Positions 4,980-19,726 of a stretch of DNA of 24,630 nt are shown piece after piece; within the stretch, counting starts at the first letter, position 1, and the number at the start of each line of letters is the position of its first letter. The stretch is from a virus. The stretch is from the IMG/VR virus record IMGVR_UViG_3300050033_000331, positions 1 to 24,630 of that record; one strand, written 5' to 3'. The notes under the pieces were generated by a model. That model was given only the letters and a program-made list of their open reading frames with translations, did not search any database and was not told the DNA's origin. Position numbers and translations under genes: made by a program.

Positions 4980-5197
4980 TGGCACGAAGTAACGCAAACA
5001 TAATCCCAATTCACCGCCGAATGACCGAACGAGAGTTGATGAAGGTTGAAATTGAAGAAGCTACCTACGACCAGGCACACAGTTATGAGCAGGTGCAGGT
5101 TCACTTCACACCAGAGGAACTGAAGCGCGTGGCTATGCAACCAATATGGCAGGTGTTGCCCTGGTACAAGCGGCTGCTGGCGTGGCTGTTTGCGTAG
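4976..5197 (+). CDS. Hypothetical 73-aa early protein
   Basis: The gene starts inside the stop of the preceding small gene (AGAGGAGTGGAGG site just upstream) and its end overlaps the 3D-domain gene. The product has a charged middle (M-T-E-R-E-L-M-K-V-E-I-E-E-A) and a short aromatic C-terminus (L-P-W-Y-K-R-L-L-A-W-L-F-A) that could be an amphipathic membrane anchor. I recognise no family. Its place between recombination genes and a secreted protein gives no firm functional clue. Confidence 0.6.
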   Translation: MMARSNANIIPIHRRMTERELMKVEIEEATYDQAHSYEQVQVHFTPEELKRVAMQPIWQVLPWYKRLLAWLFA

Positions 5198-5573
5198 GGC
5201 CTTAATCCTGGCCCTTCTGTTGCTGGCATTGACCCCGCAGTCGCTGGCGGTTGAGCCAATCTTGATTAAACAACCCGTTATTTCAAGCGAGGTCAGTAGG
5301 GGACAGCGGGTACTGATCATGCAGGCCACGGCCTATTGCTACACCGGGCATAAAACCAAGACCGGTACTTGGCCGAAAGAGGGCAGGACGGTAGCAGTTG
5401 ATCCAAGCGTTATACCCCTGGGCAGTAGGTTGGTCATAGACGGAGTAGGCGGCTACATAGCGGAGGATACCGGGGGAGCGATCAAGGGCAGGATCATCGA
5501 TCTGTATATGACGGATAGAACGGATTGTATCAAGCATGGGAGGCAAACTGTGGAAGTGAGGGTGGTGGAGTGA
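5190..5573 (+). CDS. Secreted 3D-domain protein
   Basis: A TTG start inside the end of the previous gene gives a clear signal peptide (R-R-A-L-I-L-A-L-L-L-L-A-L-T-P-Q-S-L-A) with likely cleavage after the Ala. Residues about 44-125 form a 3D domain, named for three conserved aspartates, all visible here: V-A-V-D-P, A-E-D-T-G-G-A-I-K-G and I-I-D-L-Y-M. I-P-L-G-S-R and the closing V-E-V-R-V-V also fit. The fold is a double-psi barrel related to the MltA lytic transglycosylases and to the YocH/Rpf-like wall enzymes. It should act outside the membrane on peptidoglycan or the envelope. Its position in an early, not lysis, region is odd. The next gene starts inside its stop (GTGA). Confidence 0.85.
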   Translation: MRRALILALLLLALTPQSLAVEPILIKQPVISSEVSRGQRVLIMQATAYCYTGHKTKTGTWPKEGRTVAVDPSVIPLGSRLVIDGVGGYIAEDTGGAIKGRIIDLYMTDRTDCIKHGRQTVEVRVVE

Positions 5574-7181: not shown

Positions 7182-7733
7182 ATGGATTACATGATTAAGG
7201 GGTTTGCTATCGGTGAACGCTCATTAGAGGAGTTTGTCGAAGATATTGAACAATATAGCGATCCGGTAAAGAAATTTTTATGGGATGAAATATGTTGCGC
7301 TTTTGATTATCTTGATGCCACTTTGATGGATATTAAATCACCGATTGAACAAGCATTGTTTTTAGCATGGAGACAAAGCGGGCACATGTACCCACTAAAA
7401 CATAGAGCGAAATTATCTAACCAATTGGAAACAGTAATATTTGAGCCGCAACATGCAGTAAAAATAGAGGCTAAAACTTACTATCTCGATTTCTTATTGG
7501 CCTTATTGTTGCCTAATGATAAATCTGTTCAGATAGCCATTGAATGTGATGGGCATGATTTCCACGAAAAAACCAAACAGCAAGCTAGGGCCGACAAACA
7601 GCGAGAAAGGGCATTAATAAAAGCGGGTTATACAGTTGTAAGATTTACCGGTAGTGAGATATATGCAGATCCTCATAAATGTGCTGATGAAATTTATGAT
7701 GTTACTATTAATTTAATCAATCAATTTAAGTGA
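7182..7733 (+). CDS. DUF559/Vsr-like PD-(D/E)XK endonuclease
   Basis: This 183-residue protein has the short-patch-repair (Vsr)/DUF559 core. S-P-I-E-Q-A-L-F carries the first acidic residue, Y-Y-L-D-F-L-L the metal aspartate, and I-A-I-E-C-D-G-H-D-F-H-E the E-x-D-G-x-x-x-H hallmark, followed by K-Q-Q-A-R-A-D-K-Q-R-E-R and G-Y-T-V-V-R-F-T-G-S-E-I. Such proteins are nicking or restriction-like nucleases; the substrate is unknown. An ATG at 7191 is an alternative start. The gene and the next one are visibly AT-richer than the recombination module, suggesting separate acquisition. A role in DNA processing or host DNA attack is inference only. Confidence 0.75.
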   Translation: MDYMIKGFAIGERSLEEFVEDIEQYSDPVKKFLWDEICCAFDYLDATLMDIKSPIEQALFLAWRQSGHMYPLKHRAKLSNQLETVIFEPQHAVKIEAKTYYLDFLLALLLPNDKSVQIAIECDGHDFHEKTKQQARADKQRERALIKAGYTVVRFTGSEIYADPHKCADEIYDVTINLINQFK

Positions 7734-11810: not shown

Positions 11811-11958
11811 TTTTGTCATTAAAAACACTTTAAATGCGTGATACACTGGAAATGGAAAATTACATACACGAGCGCGGATTATCGGTAACAAATGAAACCT
11901 TTGGAGAAGGGGATGCGGCCCTCGTTTAAATTGGGCTTGCCTTACCAAAAGCCGGAGC

Positions 11959-11986
11959 TTGTATTATTCATCTTTCGTGGTAGAAT
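11959..11986 (+). promoter_or_regulatory. Sigma-A-type promoter for the 58-aa gene
   Basis: TTGTAT (11959-11964) and TAGAAT (11981-11986) are 16 bases apart, and the -10 is extended by TGG just upstream. It sits 25 bases before the small gene at 12012, giving a short leader with the AGAGGGG ribosome site. The gene would thus be transcribed independently of the early operon. Confidence 0.55.
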
Positions 11987-12011
11987 TAGGAAAAACGAGA
12001 GGGGAAATAAT

Positions 12012-12188
12012 ATGTTAAAAATCAGAATGGATAATGGATCAGAATACATTGTTGACGAGACCCAAAAGAGCCTCGATAATAAGATCCATAATCAATTGGG
12101 AATATTGATAAACAGCTTTGTTGATTTAAAGGAAAGACTAAAAATTAATCCAAGTCATATTTCTTCAATAGAAGAAGTTGAAGAATAA
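12012..12188 (+). CDS. Hypothetical 58-aa protein in its own transcription unit
   Basis: The frame is open from further upstream, but the ATG at 12012 has the AGAGGGG site and lies just behind the promoter at 11959-11986, so I take it as the start. The product opens M-L-K-I-R-M-D-N-G-S-E-Y-I-V-D-E, a small beta-like motif that resembles the N-terminus of the 65-residue protein encoded at 15432, and continues as a charged helix ending E-E-V-E-E. A clean terminator follows at 12257. It is probably a phage accessory (moron-like) gene; function unknown. Confidence 0.65.
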   Translation: MLKIRMDNGSEYIVDETQKSLDNKIHNQLGILINSFVDLKERLKINPSHISSIEEVEE

Positions 12189-12256
12189 TTTAAACACACA
12201 ATGCCGCCAGATATAGAGTGAGTTAAAACAAACTGATAAAGTAAGACAAAATAATC

Positions 12257-12278
12257 AGCCCCTATGGGGGCTTTTTAT
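12257..12278 (+). terminator. Rho-independent terminator after the 58-aa gene
   Basis: The stem AGCCCC (12257-12262) pairs with GGGGCT (12267-12272) around a TATG loop, followed by TTTTTAT. On the minus strand the same hairpin is followed by GATTATTTT, so it may also stop transcripts from the minus-strand gene at 12340-12603. Confidence 0.8.
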
Positions 12279-12339
12279 ATTGGAAGCTTGTAAGGACTTT
12301 TAGATGTTGTATCAATTTGCCCGACAAGCCTATGTATGG

Positions 12340-12603
12340 CTATTTGCCGAAGATATTTAGGATCCACGATATTAGATCGATAAAATTGTTAGCTTTTTTA
12401 ACTTTACTGTTAGCTTCCCTGCGACTGTCTCCGGATAGGAGACTAAAGTCGTATACGAGTCTGCCGTGGACCTTTTTTATTACGAATAATGTTATTGACC
12501 CGAGTACGACGGGGAACAATATTGGCCAGAAGATCTTAACAAGGTTAGGCATTAATATGTTTATAGTTTTCACGAATATTTCATGCCAATTGATCAAAGA
12601 CAT
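12340..12603 (-). CDS. Minus-strand single-span membrane protein (87 aa)
   Basis: This is the only convincing minus-strand gene. Upstream of the start, reading on the minus strand, are a CTGGAGG ribosome site and an extended -10 promoter at 12644-12652. The product has an amphipathic N-terminus (S-L-I-N-W-H-E-I-F-V-K-T), a hydrophobic stretch (P-N-L-V-K-I-F-W-P-I-L-F-P-V-V-L-G-S), a second hydrophobic patch to V-I-K-K, and a basic cytoplasmic-like tail (S-R-R-E-A-N-S-K-V-K-K). The opposite-strand frame across the same DNA lacks a ribosome site and reads as a shadow. An independently transcribed, opposite-strand membrane gene between early and late blocks is the usual layout of lysogenic-conversion or superinfection-exclusion genes; that role is inference. 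Confidence 0.65.
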   Translation of the reverse strand: MSLINWHEIFVKTINILMPNLVKIFWPILFPVVLGSITLFVIKKVHGRLVYDFSLLSGDSRREANSKVKKANNFIDLISWILNIFGK

Positions 12604-12643
12604 CGCTCCAAAACCTCCAGATAAAGCTACCTGTAATAAATAA

Positions 12644-12652
12644 ATTATAACA
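12644..12652 (-). promoter_or_regulatory. Extended -10 promoter for the minus-strand membrane gene
   Basis: Read on the minus strand, the sequence is TGTTATAAT: a perfect TATAAT with the TG extension, 41 bases upstream of the start codon at 12603. No good -35 hexamer lies 16-18 bases further up, which an extended -10 can compensate for. It drives only the minus-strand gene and points away from the Spo0E-like gene. Confidence 0.6.
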
Positions 12653-12685
12653 CCGCAAGAAAAAAACGGAATGTTGTAAAAAGGT

Positions 12686-12712
12686 GCAGGAAACCACTCC
12701 CTTTTGTAGAAG
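12686..12712 (+). promoter_or_regulatory. Possible sigma-H-type promoter of the Spo0E-like gene
   Basis: GCAGGAAAC (12686-12694), an 11-base spacer and GTAGAAG (12706-12712) match the Bacillus sigma-H pattern RnAGGAwww - N11-12 - RnnGAAT, with mismatches at the last base of each element. The spacing equals that in the classic spoVG sigma-H promoter as I remember it. Transcription would begin near 12719, about 25 bases before the TTG start and just upstream of the GGAGGGGGG ribosome site. No sigma-A promoter of comparable quality is visible in this gap. Confidence 0.4.
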
Positions 12713-12743
12713 CATATAGGAGCAATAGGAGGGGGGTATTTCC

Positions 12744-12905
12744 TTGAGCATCATCGAAAAAATAGAAAAGGTACGTCAAGAACTGGCTCATTTAGGAATT
12801 GAGAAGGGTTTTCAGGATCCGCAAGTGATCAAAGCGAGTCAAATGCTTGATGAGTTAATTAATCAATATTATAAATCGCAATTAGAGGTCCAAGGGGCAA
12901 GTTAA
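12744..12905 (+). CDS. Spo0E-like sporulation-regulatory phosphatase
   Basis: This 53-residue helical-hairpin protein starts at TTG 12744 behind AGGAGGGGGG. It carries the Spo0E-family signature near the end: K-A-S-Q-M-L-D-E-L-I-N-Q-Y-Y, compared with S-Q-x-L-D-x-L-I-N-x-Y in Bacillus Spo0E, YisI and YnzD, preceded by a first helix (I-I-E-K-I-E-K-V-R-Q-E-L). Spo0E-type proteins remove the phosphate from the response-regulator aspartate of Spo0A and so hold back sporulation. The gene has its own terminator and an apparent sigma-H-like promoter, in the accessory island before the terminase operon. Phage benefit by delaying host sporulation is inference; some short Spo0E-like proteins have other, unknown targets. 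Confidence 0.8.
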   Translation: MSIIEKIEKVRQELAHLGIEKGFQDPQVIKASQMLDELINQYYKSQLEVQGAS

Positions 12906-12922
12906 CATATACATATATCGAT

Positions 12923-12960
12923 GAGTCTGGCAGTGAGCCGGGCTCTTTTTATTTTTATTT
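12923..12960 (+). terminator. Strong rho-independent terminator after the Spo0E-like gene
   Basis: A nine-base stem (12923-12931 with 12937-12945, two G-T wobbles) with an AGTGA loop is followed by a long T-rich tract (TTTTTATTTTTATTT). It closes a single-gene unit and insulates the terminase operon. Confidence 0.85.
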
Positions 12961-12978
12961 AAGGACACGTGGGCATTG

Positions 12979-13089
12979 TACCTAACGACAAGAGTGTACG
13001 CGCTGTTGCGCTGTCATTATGTGTGGCTGTTCAATTCACTAGCCGTCTACGTTCATGGGAATGCTAGGGGCGGGAAGCATAGTTAGGTA
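12979..13089. other. Non-coding segment with multi-helix folding potential (structured RNA or packaging site)
   Basis: No convincing gene lies between 12906 and 13244. In it, TACCTAAC (12979-12986) is the exact inverse complement of GTTAGGTA (13082-13089). Inside this outer pair are three nested local helices: GACA/TGTC (12987-12990 with 13012-13015) enclosing GCGC-TGTT-GCGC (13000-13011), GGCT/AGCC (13025-13028 with 13041-13044), and ATGCT/AGCAT (13061-13065 with 13076-13080). Together they make a closed multibranch shape. It could be a small structured RNA or a packaging (cos/pac) or protein-binding region, since it lies about 150 bases before terS. No known RNA family is recognised. Confidence 0.3.
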
Positions 13090-13144
13090 GATCATCTGTG
13101 ATTGGAGTGGTTATCATGTTGGAACGATCGCGAATATACTGGCA

Positions 13145-13173
13145 TTGGTGGCCACTATCAGTCTTATTATAAT
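13145..13173 (+). promoter_or_regulatory. Sigma-A-type promoter of the terminase operon
   Basis: TTGGTG (13145-13150) and a perfect TATAAT (13168-13173) are separated by 17 bases, 72 bases before the TerS start. The weak -35 would suit activation by a late regulator such as the product of the gene ending at 11810; that link is inference. Confidence 0.5.
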
Positions 13174-13223
13174 GGTTGCAAGTGGCGGCAAGCCATGATT
13201 GCACAATGAATTAAAGATTTTCA

Positions 13224-13247
13224 GGTGGAGGTGGTGTTATGTAAATG
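13224..13247 (+). promoter_or_regulatory. Ribosome site with ATG-TAA start-stop element before terS
   Basis: The site GGTGGAGGTGG (13224-13234) is followed at ideal distance by ATG (13239-13241), which is directly followed by TAA (13242-13244) and then by the real TerS ATG at 13245. Spacing from the GGAGG core to the TerS ATG is about 13 bases, longer than normal, so ribosomes could initiate at the start-stop pair and reinitiate one codon later. Confidence 0.5.
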
Positions 13248-14099
13248 CCCAGGCATAAAAGCGACAATCGATTACTAGCATTTGAAAAATATGAACAGAG
13301 CGGTGGTTCGATCTCGTGCAAAGAGATTGCTGCAACTCTTGGTGTATCTGATAGCCAGATTAGAAACTGGAAGGCTAAAGATAAATGGGACAAACAAATA
13401 CAGTTGCGCAATCAAACAAATACAGTTGCGCAATCAAATAAACCACAGCCATGGAAAGAGGGTAAACCCTGGGGTGCCCCCAAAGGAAGTGAAAATGCCC
13501 TAGGCAATAAAGGTGGCCATGGTGGCCCAAACGGAAACGACCATGCAGTAAAGCATGGTTTTTTTTCGCGTATCTTTCCGGATGATGAGGAGACTCGGGC
13601 TATCCTGGATGATATCCAAGTTAAGAGCTCGATTGAGATCCTTTGGGAGCAGATTGTAATCCAATACACTGCTATAGCCAGAGCGCAGAAGATCATGTTT
13701 GTCAAAGATCAGGAGGATATCACCGAGCACCTTAAAAAACGCAAGGTGATGTCGGATGTTAAGAATACTGGCGATAGAAGCGAAAAAGACTACCAAGCAA
13801 TTGAAACCTACCACGAGGAAGAGTGGGAGCTGCAGTTTGCATGGGATAAGCAAGCCACTTTCCTGACCGCTCAATCAAGGGCTATTAAGACGTTGGAAGG
13901 GTTGATTGCCAGGTATGAGCAAATGTTGCATAAGGATTTAGATGTTGAGGAGCAGCAACTGAGGGTTGATAAGCTTAGGGCTGAAATTGCCAAAATTAAA
14001 GATCCGGAAGGAGATCCAGTCGAGGACGACGGTTTTATCGAAGCACTGCAAGCCGAAGCCATAAAAGACATATGGAACGGAGATGGGGATGAATGCTAA
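13245..14099 (+). CDS. terS: Terminase small subunit (PBSX/YqaS-like)
   Basis: This 284-residue protein begins M-P-R-H-K-S-D-N-R, then a helix-turn-helix (I-S-C-K-E-I-A-A-T-L-G-V-S-D-S-Q-I-R-N-W-K) and K-D-K-W-D, as in PBSX-type small terminases that bind the packaging site. A Gly/Asn/Lys linker (G-A-P-K-G-S-E-N-A-L-G-N-K-G-G) leads to a helical oligomerisation domain and an acidic tail. The linker region contains a 22-base tandem duplication that is not a multiple of three. It overlaps terL by seven bases, the standard layout. Confidence 0.85.
   Translation: MPRHKSDNRLLAFEKYEQSGGSISCKEIAATLGVSDSQIRNWKAKDKWDKQIQLRNQTNTVAQSNKPQPWKEGKPWGAPKGSENALGNKGGHGGPNGNDHAVKHGFFSRIFPDDEETRAILDDIQVKSSIEILWEQIVIQYTAIARAQKIMFVKDQEDITEHLKKRKVMSDVKNTGDRSEKDYQAIETYHEEEWELQFAWDKQATFLTAQSRAIKTLEGLIARYEQMLHKDLDVEEQQLRVDKLRAEIAKIKDPEGDPVEDDGFIEALQAEAIKDIWNGDGDEC
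13394..13437 (+). repeat. Two exact 22-bp tandem copies inside terS
   Basis: The 22-base unit ACAAATACAG...CAATCAA occurs at 13394-13415 and again at 13416-13437 with no mismatch. Because 22 is not divisible by three, the second copy is read in another frame (Q-I-Q-L-R-N-Q then N-T-V-A-Q-S-N) and the copy number sets whether the TerS frame stays open. Confidence 0.95.
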
Positions 14100-15385
14100 A
14101 GCCCGCACCGTTCAAGTTTAAGACCTTTTCCAGGAAACAAAAACAACTGCTTACATGGTGGATGCCAGGATCCCCACACTGTGACCGGGATATGATCATT
14201 GCATCAGGAGCCATAAGGTCAGGCAAAACGCTGCCCATGAGCCTGAGCTTTGTGATTTGGGCCATGACTACGTTTAACAATCAGAACTTCGGCATGTCCG
14301 GAAAGACGATTGGTGCACTACGCCGAAACGTCATAATCCTGCTGAAGGTCATACTTCGGAGCCGGGGCTACAAGGTTAACGATCGCCGCGGCGATATTCA
14401 TTACCTGGAGATCATCAAGGGCAACGTGACAAATTACTTTTTTCTGTTCGGCGGCTACAACGAACAGAGCCAGGACCTTATTCAAGGCGTTACGCTGGCT
14501 GGGATGTACTTCGATGAGGTGGCCATCATGCCGGAGAGTTTCGTCAACCAGGCCGTTGGCCGTTGCTCGGTCGAAGGCGCCCGATTCTGGTTCAACTGCA
14601 ACCCACAGGGACCTTTCCACTGGTTTAAGACCGGGTGGATCGATGACCTAGATGAGAAGAACGCACTCTACATTGAGTTTGGGCTCGATGACAACCTATC
14701 CTTAAGCGATAAGACCAAGGTCCGGTACCGACGACTGTTTTCCGGGGTGTTCTATCAGCGCTACATCTTGGGACTCTGGGTGCTGGCCGAGGGCATCATA
14801 TACAGCATGTTTGACGATGACGAGAATATCTTTGACGAAGAGCCAGAGAACCTGCGCTACAAGGCGAGGCGTTACGCGGCCGTCGACTATGGTACCACCA
14901 ACCCCATGGTCTTTTTGGAGATCTGGGATGATGACGATACGATCTATCAAACCCGGGAGTATTACTACAGCAGCAAGGACAAGGCCCACGAAGGACAGCA
15001 AAAGACGGACAGCCAGTACGCCGATGACTTCGAGGAGTTCTTCGGGCCGGCCACCGAGCCCGACGCACCCATTGAGGTGATCTTGGATCCAAGTGCTGCG
15101 AGCTTCAAAGCGGAGCTCCGCAACCGCGGGTACCGGGTCAAGGACGCCAACAACGATGTGGCTGACGGGATCCGGGTGTTTGCATCGGTCCTCGGACTGC
15201 GGATGTACAAGGTGCATCGGAGTTGCGTTAACACGATCAGGGAGTTTAAATCCTATGTCTGGGATGAGAAGGCCACGCTCCGCGGCGTTGAGCAACCACT
15301 AAAGCAGAACGATCATGCAATGGACGCCGGCAGATACTGGTGTTTGACCAAGATAAAGAACTGGAGACTCCAAAAAGCAGCGTAA
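14093..15385 (+). CDS. terL: Terminase large subunit (PBSX type)
   Basis: This 430-residue packaging motor has an N-terminal ATPase and a C-terminal nuclease. Walker A is G-A-I-R-S-G-K-T (about residues 39-46) and Walker B is A-G-M-Y-F-D-E-V-A. The coupling region W-F-N-C-N-P-Q-G-P follows, then nuclease acidic residues in A-V-D-Y-G-T-T-N-P, V-I-L-D-P-S-A-A-S-F and N-D-H-A-M-D-A-G-R-Y. It drives DNA into the prohead through the portal encoded downstream and cuts the concatemer. The length is usual for the Terminase_3/PBSX family. The start lies inside the terS stop region. Confidence 0.92.
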   Translation: MLKPAPFKFKTFSRKQKQLLTWWMPGSPHCDRDMIIASGAIRSGKTLPMSLSFVIWAMTTFNNQNFGMSGKTIGALRRNVIILLKVILRSRGYKVNDRRGDIHYLEIIKGNVTNYFFLFGGYNEQSQDLIQGVTLAGMYFDEVAIMPESFVNQAVGRCSVEGARFWFNCNPQGPFHWFKTGWIDDLDEKNALYIEFGLDDNLSLSDKTKVRYRRLFSGVFYQRYILGLWVLAEGIIYSMFDDDENIFDEEPENLRYKARRYAAVDYGTTNPMVFLEIWDDDDTIYQTREYYYSSKDKAHEGQQKTDSQYADDFEEFFGPATEPDAPIEVILDPSAASFKAELRNRGYRVKDANNDVADGIRVFASVLGLRMYKVHRSCVNTIREFKSYVWDEKATLRGVEQPLKQNDHAMDAGRYWCLTKIKNWRLQKAA

Positions 15386-19546: not shown

Positions 19547-19726
19547 TTGCCAAATCCAACCATACAACAACTGCCCCCCGGGACCGGACGCCTATTAAAA
19601 GAGGATGGGACAATAGTAAACATAGCTAATCTTATTGAGACGCTGAGCGCAAAAGATTTTACATCATCTTTAGACTCCGGTACAGCCACAAGCGGATATG
19701 CAGGCGATACTAGAAACGCTGGTTAA
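19547..19726 (+). CDS. Small head-region protein (59 aa)
   Basis: A TTG start at 19547 follows a perfect AAAGGAGGAT site. The product reads N-P-T-I-Q-Q-L-P-P-G-T-G-R-L-L-K-E-D-G-T-I, then N-I-A-N-L-I-E and a Gly/Ser/Thr-rich tail. I recall the L-P-P-G-T-G-R-L-x-x-E-D-G motif from small proteins in Firmicutes phage head operons; function unknown. It is the third small gene here that is closed by a terminator. Confidence 0.65.
   Translation: MPNPTIQQLPPGTGRLLKEDGTIVNIANLIETLSAKDFTSSLDSGTATSGYAGDTRNAG

Follow-up and report, generated by a model that had tools for sequence, protein, structure and literature searches.

Bacteria can gain protection from phages by sporulating, and known phage genes disrupt this process. 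There are earlier descriptions of Spo0E encoded by phages and of how it might be used against sporulation: gp70 of Brevibacillus phage SecTim467 is a spo0E homologue (PMC4909266), and phages have been proposed to manipulate sporulation with spo0E homologues that adjoin RRNPP systems (PMC10075063). In the Spo0E protein of B. subtilis, the Asp of the family signature is reported to be critical (PMC11115286). Spo0E is a repressor of sporulation also in C. difficile, where it works through RstA as well, and the C. difficile and B. subtilis proteins do not cross-complement, indicating narrow partner specificity (PMC11115286).

Here, we analyzed a virus record of 24,630 bases (the window, that is, the whole stretch of DNA under analysis). 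From 5' to 3', its genes comprise YqaJ and RecT recombination genes, a DnaD-like helicase loader, an AT-rich cargo island, and then terminase, portal and capsid genes. The island extends over ~11850-12950 with a GC content of 32-40%, compared with ~50% on both flanks. A spo0E-like gene lies inside it, immediately ahead of the terminase genes, and the portal and capsid genes that come after the terminase establish its phage context. The features of this region are as follows.

12257-12272, T-run on the + strand: upstream terminator-like hairpin AGCCCC-TATG-GGGGCT, from a terminator scan
12340-12603, - strand: divergent gene, an open reading frame between the two terminators whose 87-aa product has a hydrophobic segment
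12618-12613, - strand: ribosome site GGAGGT of the divergent gene, from its upstream sequence
12652-12644, - strand: extended -10 element TGtTATAAT of the divergent gene, from its upstream sequence
12686-12712, + strand: candidate sigma-H site GCAGGAAAC-N11-GTAGAAG, considered to match by chance
12727-12736, + strand: Shine-Dalgarno sequence AGGAGGGGGG, read directly, ahead of the TTG start
12744-12905, + strand: spo0E-like gene, 53 aa, TTG start, identified by PF09388, an AlphaFold model and a PDB fold match
12923-12945, + strand: intrinsic terminator of the spo0E-like gene, 9-pair stem and U-tract, -15.7 kcal/mol, z = -4.0
13245-14099, + strand: terminase small subunit gene (PF10668, phrog_509), directly 3' of the spo0E-like unit
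14093-15385, + strand: terminase large subunit gene (Terminase_6N, phrog_2)

A 38.9-kb record (L002/G001) matches the window at 99.7% and is entirely identical to it over 12200-13300, and no near DNA relative of the window was found in the phage collection searched. The longer record runs on into tail genes, which we read as contractile-tail type from the translations alone, with no profile search. At 19686-19696, about 2.6 kb present in the longer record is missing from the window; the open frames of this extra segment resemble virion or tail-fibre-type proteins, and the late-gene region seems to have undergone a deletion in the window, or else an insertion in the longer record. Two further genes of the window merit mention. 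A 3D-domain protein (PF06725) at 5190-5573, probably a cell-wall lytic enzyme, is placed among the early genes and not with late lysis genes. At 7182-7733 lies an MTES_1575/DUF559-type nuclease-like gene, a relative of which in another virus record (G005; L100 4818-5309) adjoins a Spo0E-like gene there.

The 53-aa protein is a member of the Spo0E family. The first-pass annotation had picked out its S-Q-x-L-D-x-L-I-N-x-Y signature, and this identification is confirmed: the open reading frame contains S32-Q-M-L-D36-E-L-I-N-Q-Y with Ser32 and Asp36 intact, and the protein reaches 64.5 bits with the Pfam profile PF09388 (cutoff 23), covering profile positions 1-42 of 42. In an alignment of 16 homologues, I7, R11, S32, L35 and D36 are invariant. 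The single-sequence AlphaFold model (pLDDT 91.5) is a two-helix hairpin with helices at residues 3-21 and 26-51. Its best fold match in the PDB by Foldseek is 2c0s, an aspartyl-phosphate phosphatase of B. anthracis, with a probability of 1.00, a TM score of 0.78 and an E-value of 0.1, which is weak, as expected at a length of 53 residues. The top PDB sequence matches are 2c0s and 2bzb, both weak. Family membership is firm because the profile score, the invariant residues, the predicted fold, the 2c0s match and the signature Asp all point the same way. Neither this protein nor the divergent 87-aa protein matched any defence-system model.

The spo0E-like gene has its own small transcription unit. 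The hairpin at 12257-12272 sets the unit apart from the early genes, and the strong terminator that had been proposed to close the gene is indeed present at 12923-12945. Relatives of the divergent 87-aa gene were found in the near-identical record only. In the 140 bases upstream of the spo0E-like gene, no convincing sigma-A promoter was found (best match 7/12), and a scan of both strands for sigma types A, B, D, E, F, G, K and W yielded nothing beyond chance. The gene is placed between phage modules, has its own terminator and deviates in base composition. It thus looks like a phage "moron", with no convincing promoter among the nine sigma types scanned.

We then propose a model for the function of this gene. 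As a small unit of its own, flanked by the early/replication genes on one side and the terminase genes on the other, it would supply a two-helix protein whose most likely docking site is the receiver domain of phosphorylated host Spo0A. Asp36 would speed the loss of phosphate from Spo0A~P, and the infected cell would be held out of sporulation and kept in growth, so that phage growth could continue. We consider it reasonably probable that the gene is phage-carried cargo encoding a Spo0E-family aspartyl-phosphate phosphatase that acts on host Spo0A~P and holds the cell out of sporulation. The phosphatase activity, Spo0A as the target and the benefit to the phage are what we infer here, and our confidence in the target goes no further because the partner specificity of Spo0E is real and other partners exist. 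Of the earlier proposal that the protein strips phosphate from Spo0A, the Spo0E-family identity is thus strongly supported, and this identity is most reasonably taken to mean an effect on Spo0A~P. Such a phage phosphatase would directly hinder the host from escaping by sporulation.

The assignment of the host to Bacillus is an assumption. Prophage status is also an assumption, since no tyrosine integrase (Phage_integrase, PF00589) was found in the window or in its 38.9-kb near-identical relative, both of which may be fragments. The closest bacterial homologue of the Spo0E-like protein (73%) comes from the MAG "Firmicutes bacterium HGW-Firmicutes-15", and other genomes of that class contain Spo0E-like matches of up to ~60%. 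A portal protein search in the class of the nearest relative (L034) returned one distant match, at 39% identity.

One alternative is that the main target of this Spo0E-family protein is not Spo0A, and that it binds a different response regulator or one of the RRNPP type, altering motility, growth-phase or lysis-lysogeny control. That viral spo0E homologues adjoin RRNPP quorum-sensing systems (PMC10075063) is consistent with this idea. However, the Ser and Asp of the signature are both in place, the Spo0A_C domain is nearly universal in the class that includes the closest homologue, being present in 59 of 63 genomes, and no RRNPP gene was recognized in the window. We regard a different main target as unlikely, though it is the best of the alternatives.

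It is less probable still that the gene is passive host-derived cargo, poorly expressed or not expressed at all and of no benefit to the phage. The AT-rich island, the lack of an identifiable promoter and the finding that, among virus records, only the one near-identical record carries the gene would fit such a passenger. Against this, nothing is damaged in the open reading frame, the signature residues, the ribosome site or the terminator, and Spo0E-like genes have been kept by several unrelated phages.

A further possibility is that entry into sporulation itself switches the gene on. Exact Spo0A boxes (TGTCGAA) occur upstream of Spo0E-like genes at 12 sites in 11 of 59 genes, compared with 0.46 expected, although several of these genes are related and the independent count is nearer six. 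Two mutually related virus records (G020 and G023; L103 and L104) have TTTTGTCGAAT in common, with an exact box 86-91 bases before the spo0E-like gene. In phage vB_BpsM-61 (L138), TGTCGAA lies 69 bases before the spo0E-like gene and overlaps the -35 element of a sigma-A-like promoter. The enrichment of exact boxes ahead of Spo0E-like genes in bacteria, together with their presence in some phages, suggests that Spo0A feedback may be a common control of such genes. Given the exact box ahead of the gene, a Spo0A-controlled phage brake on sporulation is plausible for BpsM-61 and for G020/G023. Near the spo0E-like gene of the window there is no exact box, and only one-mismatch matches were found. 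One of these, TTTTGTAGAAG at 12702, is a match of a kind of which ~1.6 are expected per window by chance. The sequence evidence in the window for switching on at sporulation entry is weak, and it is improbable that the phage uses a degenerate site for sigma-H or Spo0A to make a Spo0A phosphatase coincide with host commitment here.

The first-pass annotation had read 12686-12712 as a sigma-H-like promoter and saw its novelty in sigma-H timing of the gene. The letters GCAGGAAAC-N11-GTAGAAG are there, their spacing from the start codon is plausible, and the 140 bases upstream contain no good sigma-A promoter as a competitor. Of the 13 specified positions of RnAGGAwWW-N11/12-RnnGAAT, the site matches 11, with GAAG in its -10 element where the consensus has GAAT. 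However, this match is at chance level: equally good sites number 28 in the window and 34.2 +/- 5.6 in shuffles. When the 140-base upstream region was shuffled, an equal score was reached in 18% of trials (P 0.18), and with the RWAGGANNT-HGAAT form of the consensus 75% of trials were as good (P 0.75). In the nearest relative (L034, 73% identity), the proposed site is absent and TTGTCA-N18-TATAAT is found upstream instead. No sigma-H enrichment was detected upstream of 59 Spo0E homologues, whose mean best score was 10.15 compared with 10.12 for shuffled sequences.

SpoVS is sigma-H dependent in B. thuringiensis, with the consensus RNAGGAWWW and RNNGAATWW (PMC8510167), and the spoVS loci in the class of L034 (L108-L137) served as a positive control. 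The near-perfect site GnAGGAwTT-N11/12-TnnGAATAT was present in 28 of these 30 loci. In a weight matrix derived from the spoVS sites, spoVS scores at least 27.7 bits and the window site -3.6 bits, with 98 better places in the window; this gap is illustrative and not exact, as the matrix represents one gene family with sites picked by a strict pattern, and the class may not be that of the phage host. We rejected the candidate on two consensus forms, the shuffles, the homologue upstream regions, the spoVS control and the weight matrix, all of which agree that 12686-12712 contains no recognizable sigma-H promoter. It is therefore highly improbable that a sigma-H promoter at this position switches the gene on at the onset of sporulation and lets the phage sense and delay the process, and the claimed timing is not supported. 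Loose matches to the sigma-H consensus in AT-rich upstream regions mean little, real sites in a related class being far sharper, and the spoVS site can usefully serve as a reference when sigma-H control is claimed in the class of L034.

The preferred reading, a phage-carried Spo0E-family phosphatase acting on Spo0A~P, has several points of comparison with known systems. With the Spo0E family (PF09388; B. anthracis 2C0S and 2BZB), the protein has in common the sequence profile, the SxxxD signature, the two-helix fold and the short length; the family members are chromosomal, whereas the present gene is phage-encoded and its phosphatase activity is predicted. Phage genes that interfere with sporulation control also include sporulation sigma factors and truncated spo0A (PMC9429907, PMC10294663), and Spo0E was not found in the text of PMC10294663. 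These act on transcription, whereas the Spo0E-like protein would affect how far Spo0A is phosphorylated.

SecTim467 gp70 (PMC4909266) and the viral spo0E genes by RRNPP systems (PMC10075063) are phage spo0E homologues, as here, but the transposable region or quorum-sensing neighbours that are features of those cases were not recognized in the window. The Geobacillus phages TP-84 and vB_GthS_PK2.1 and the Bacillus phage vB_BpsM-61 also encode Spo0E-like proteins of similar size. The PK2.1 and BpsM-61 genes already have a Spo0E-like annotation and the TP-84 gene is unlabelled: its "hypothetical protein" AQY55069.1 (L102 2977-3135) is Spo0E-like and 75% identical to the PK2.1 aspartyl-phosphate phosphatase. 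The TP-84 protein is 50% identical to that of the window over 40 residues. In these three phages the gene heads a recombination operon before an XRE regulator, whereas the window gene is a separate unit adjoining the terminase genes. This record suggests that phage Spo0E-like genes are not confined to phages infecting Bacillus, Geobacillus and Brevibacillus, and occur also in those of another Firmicutes host.
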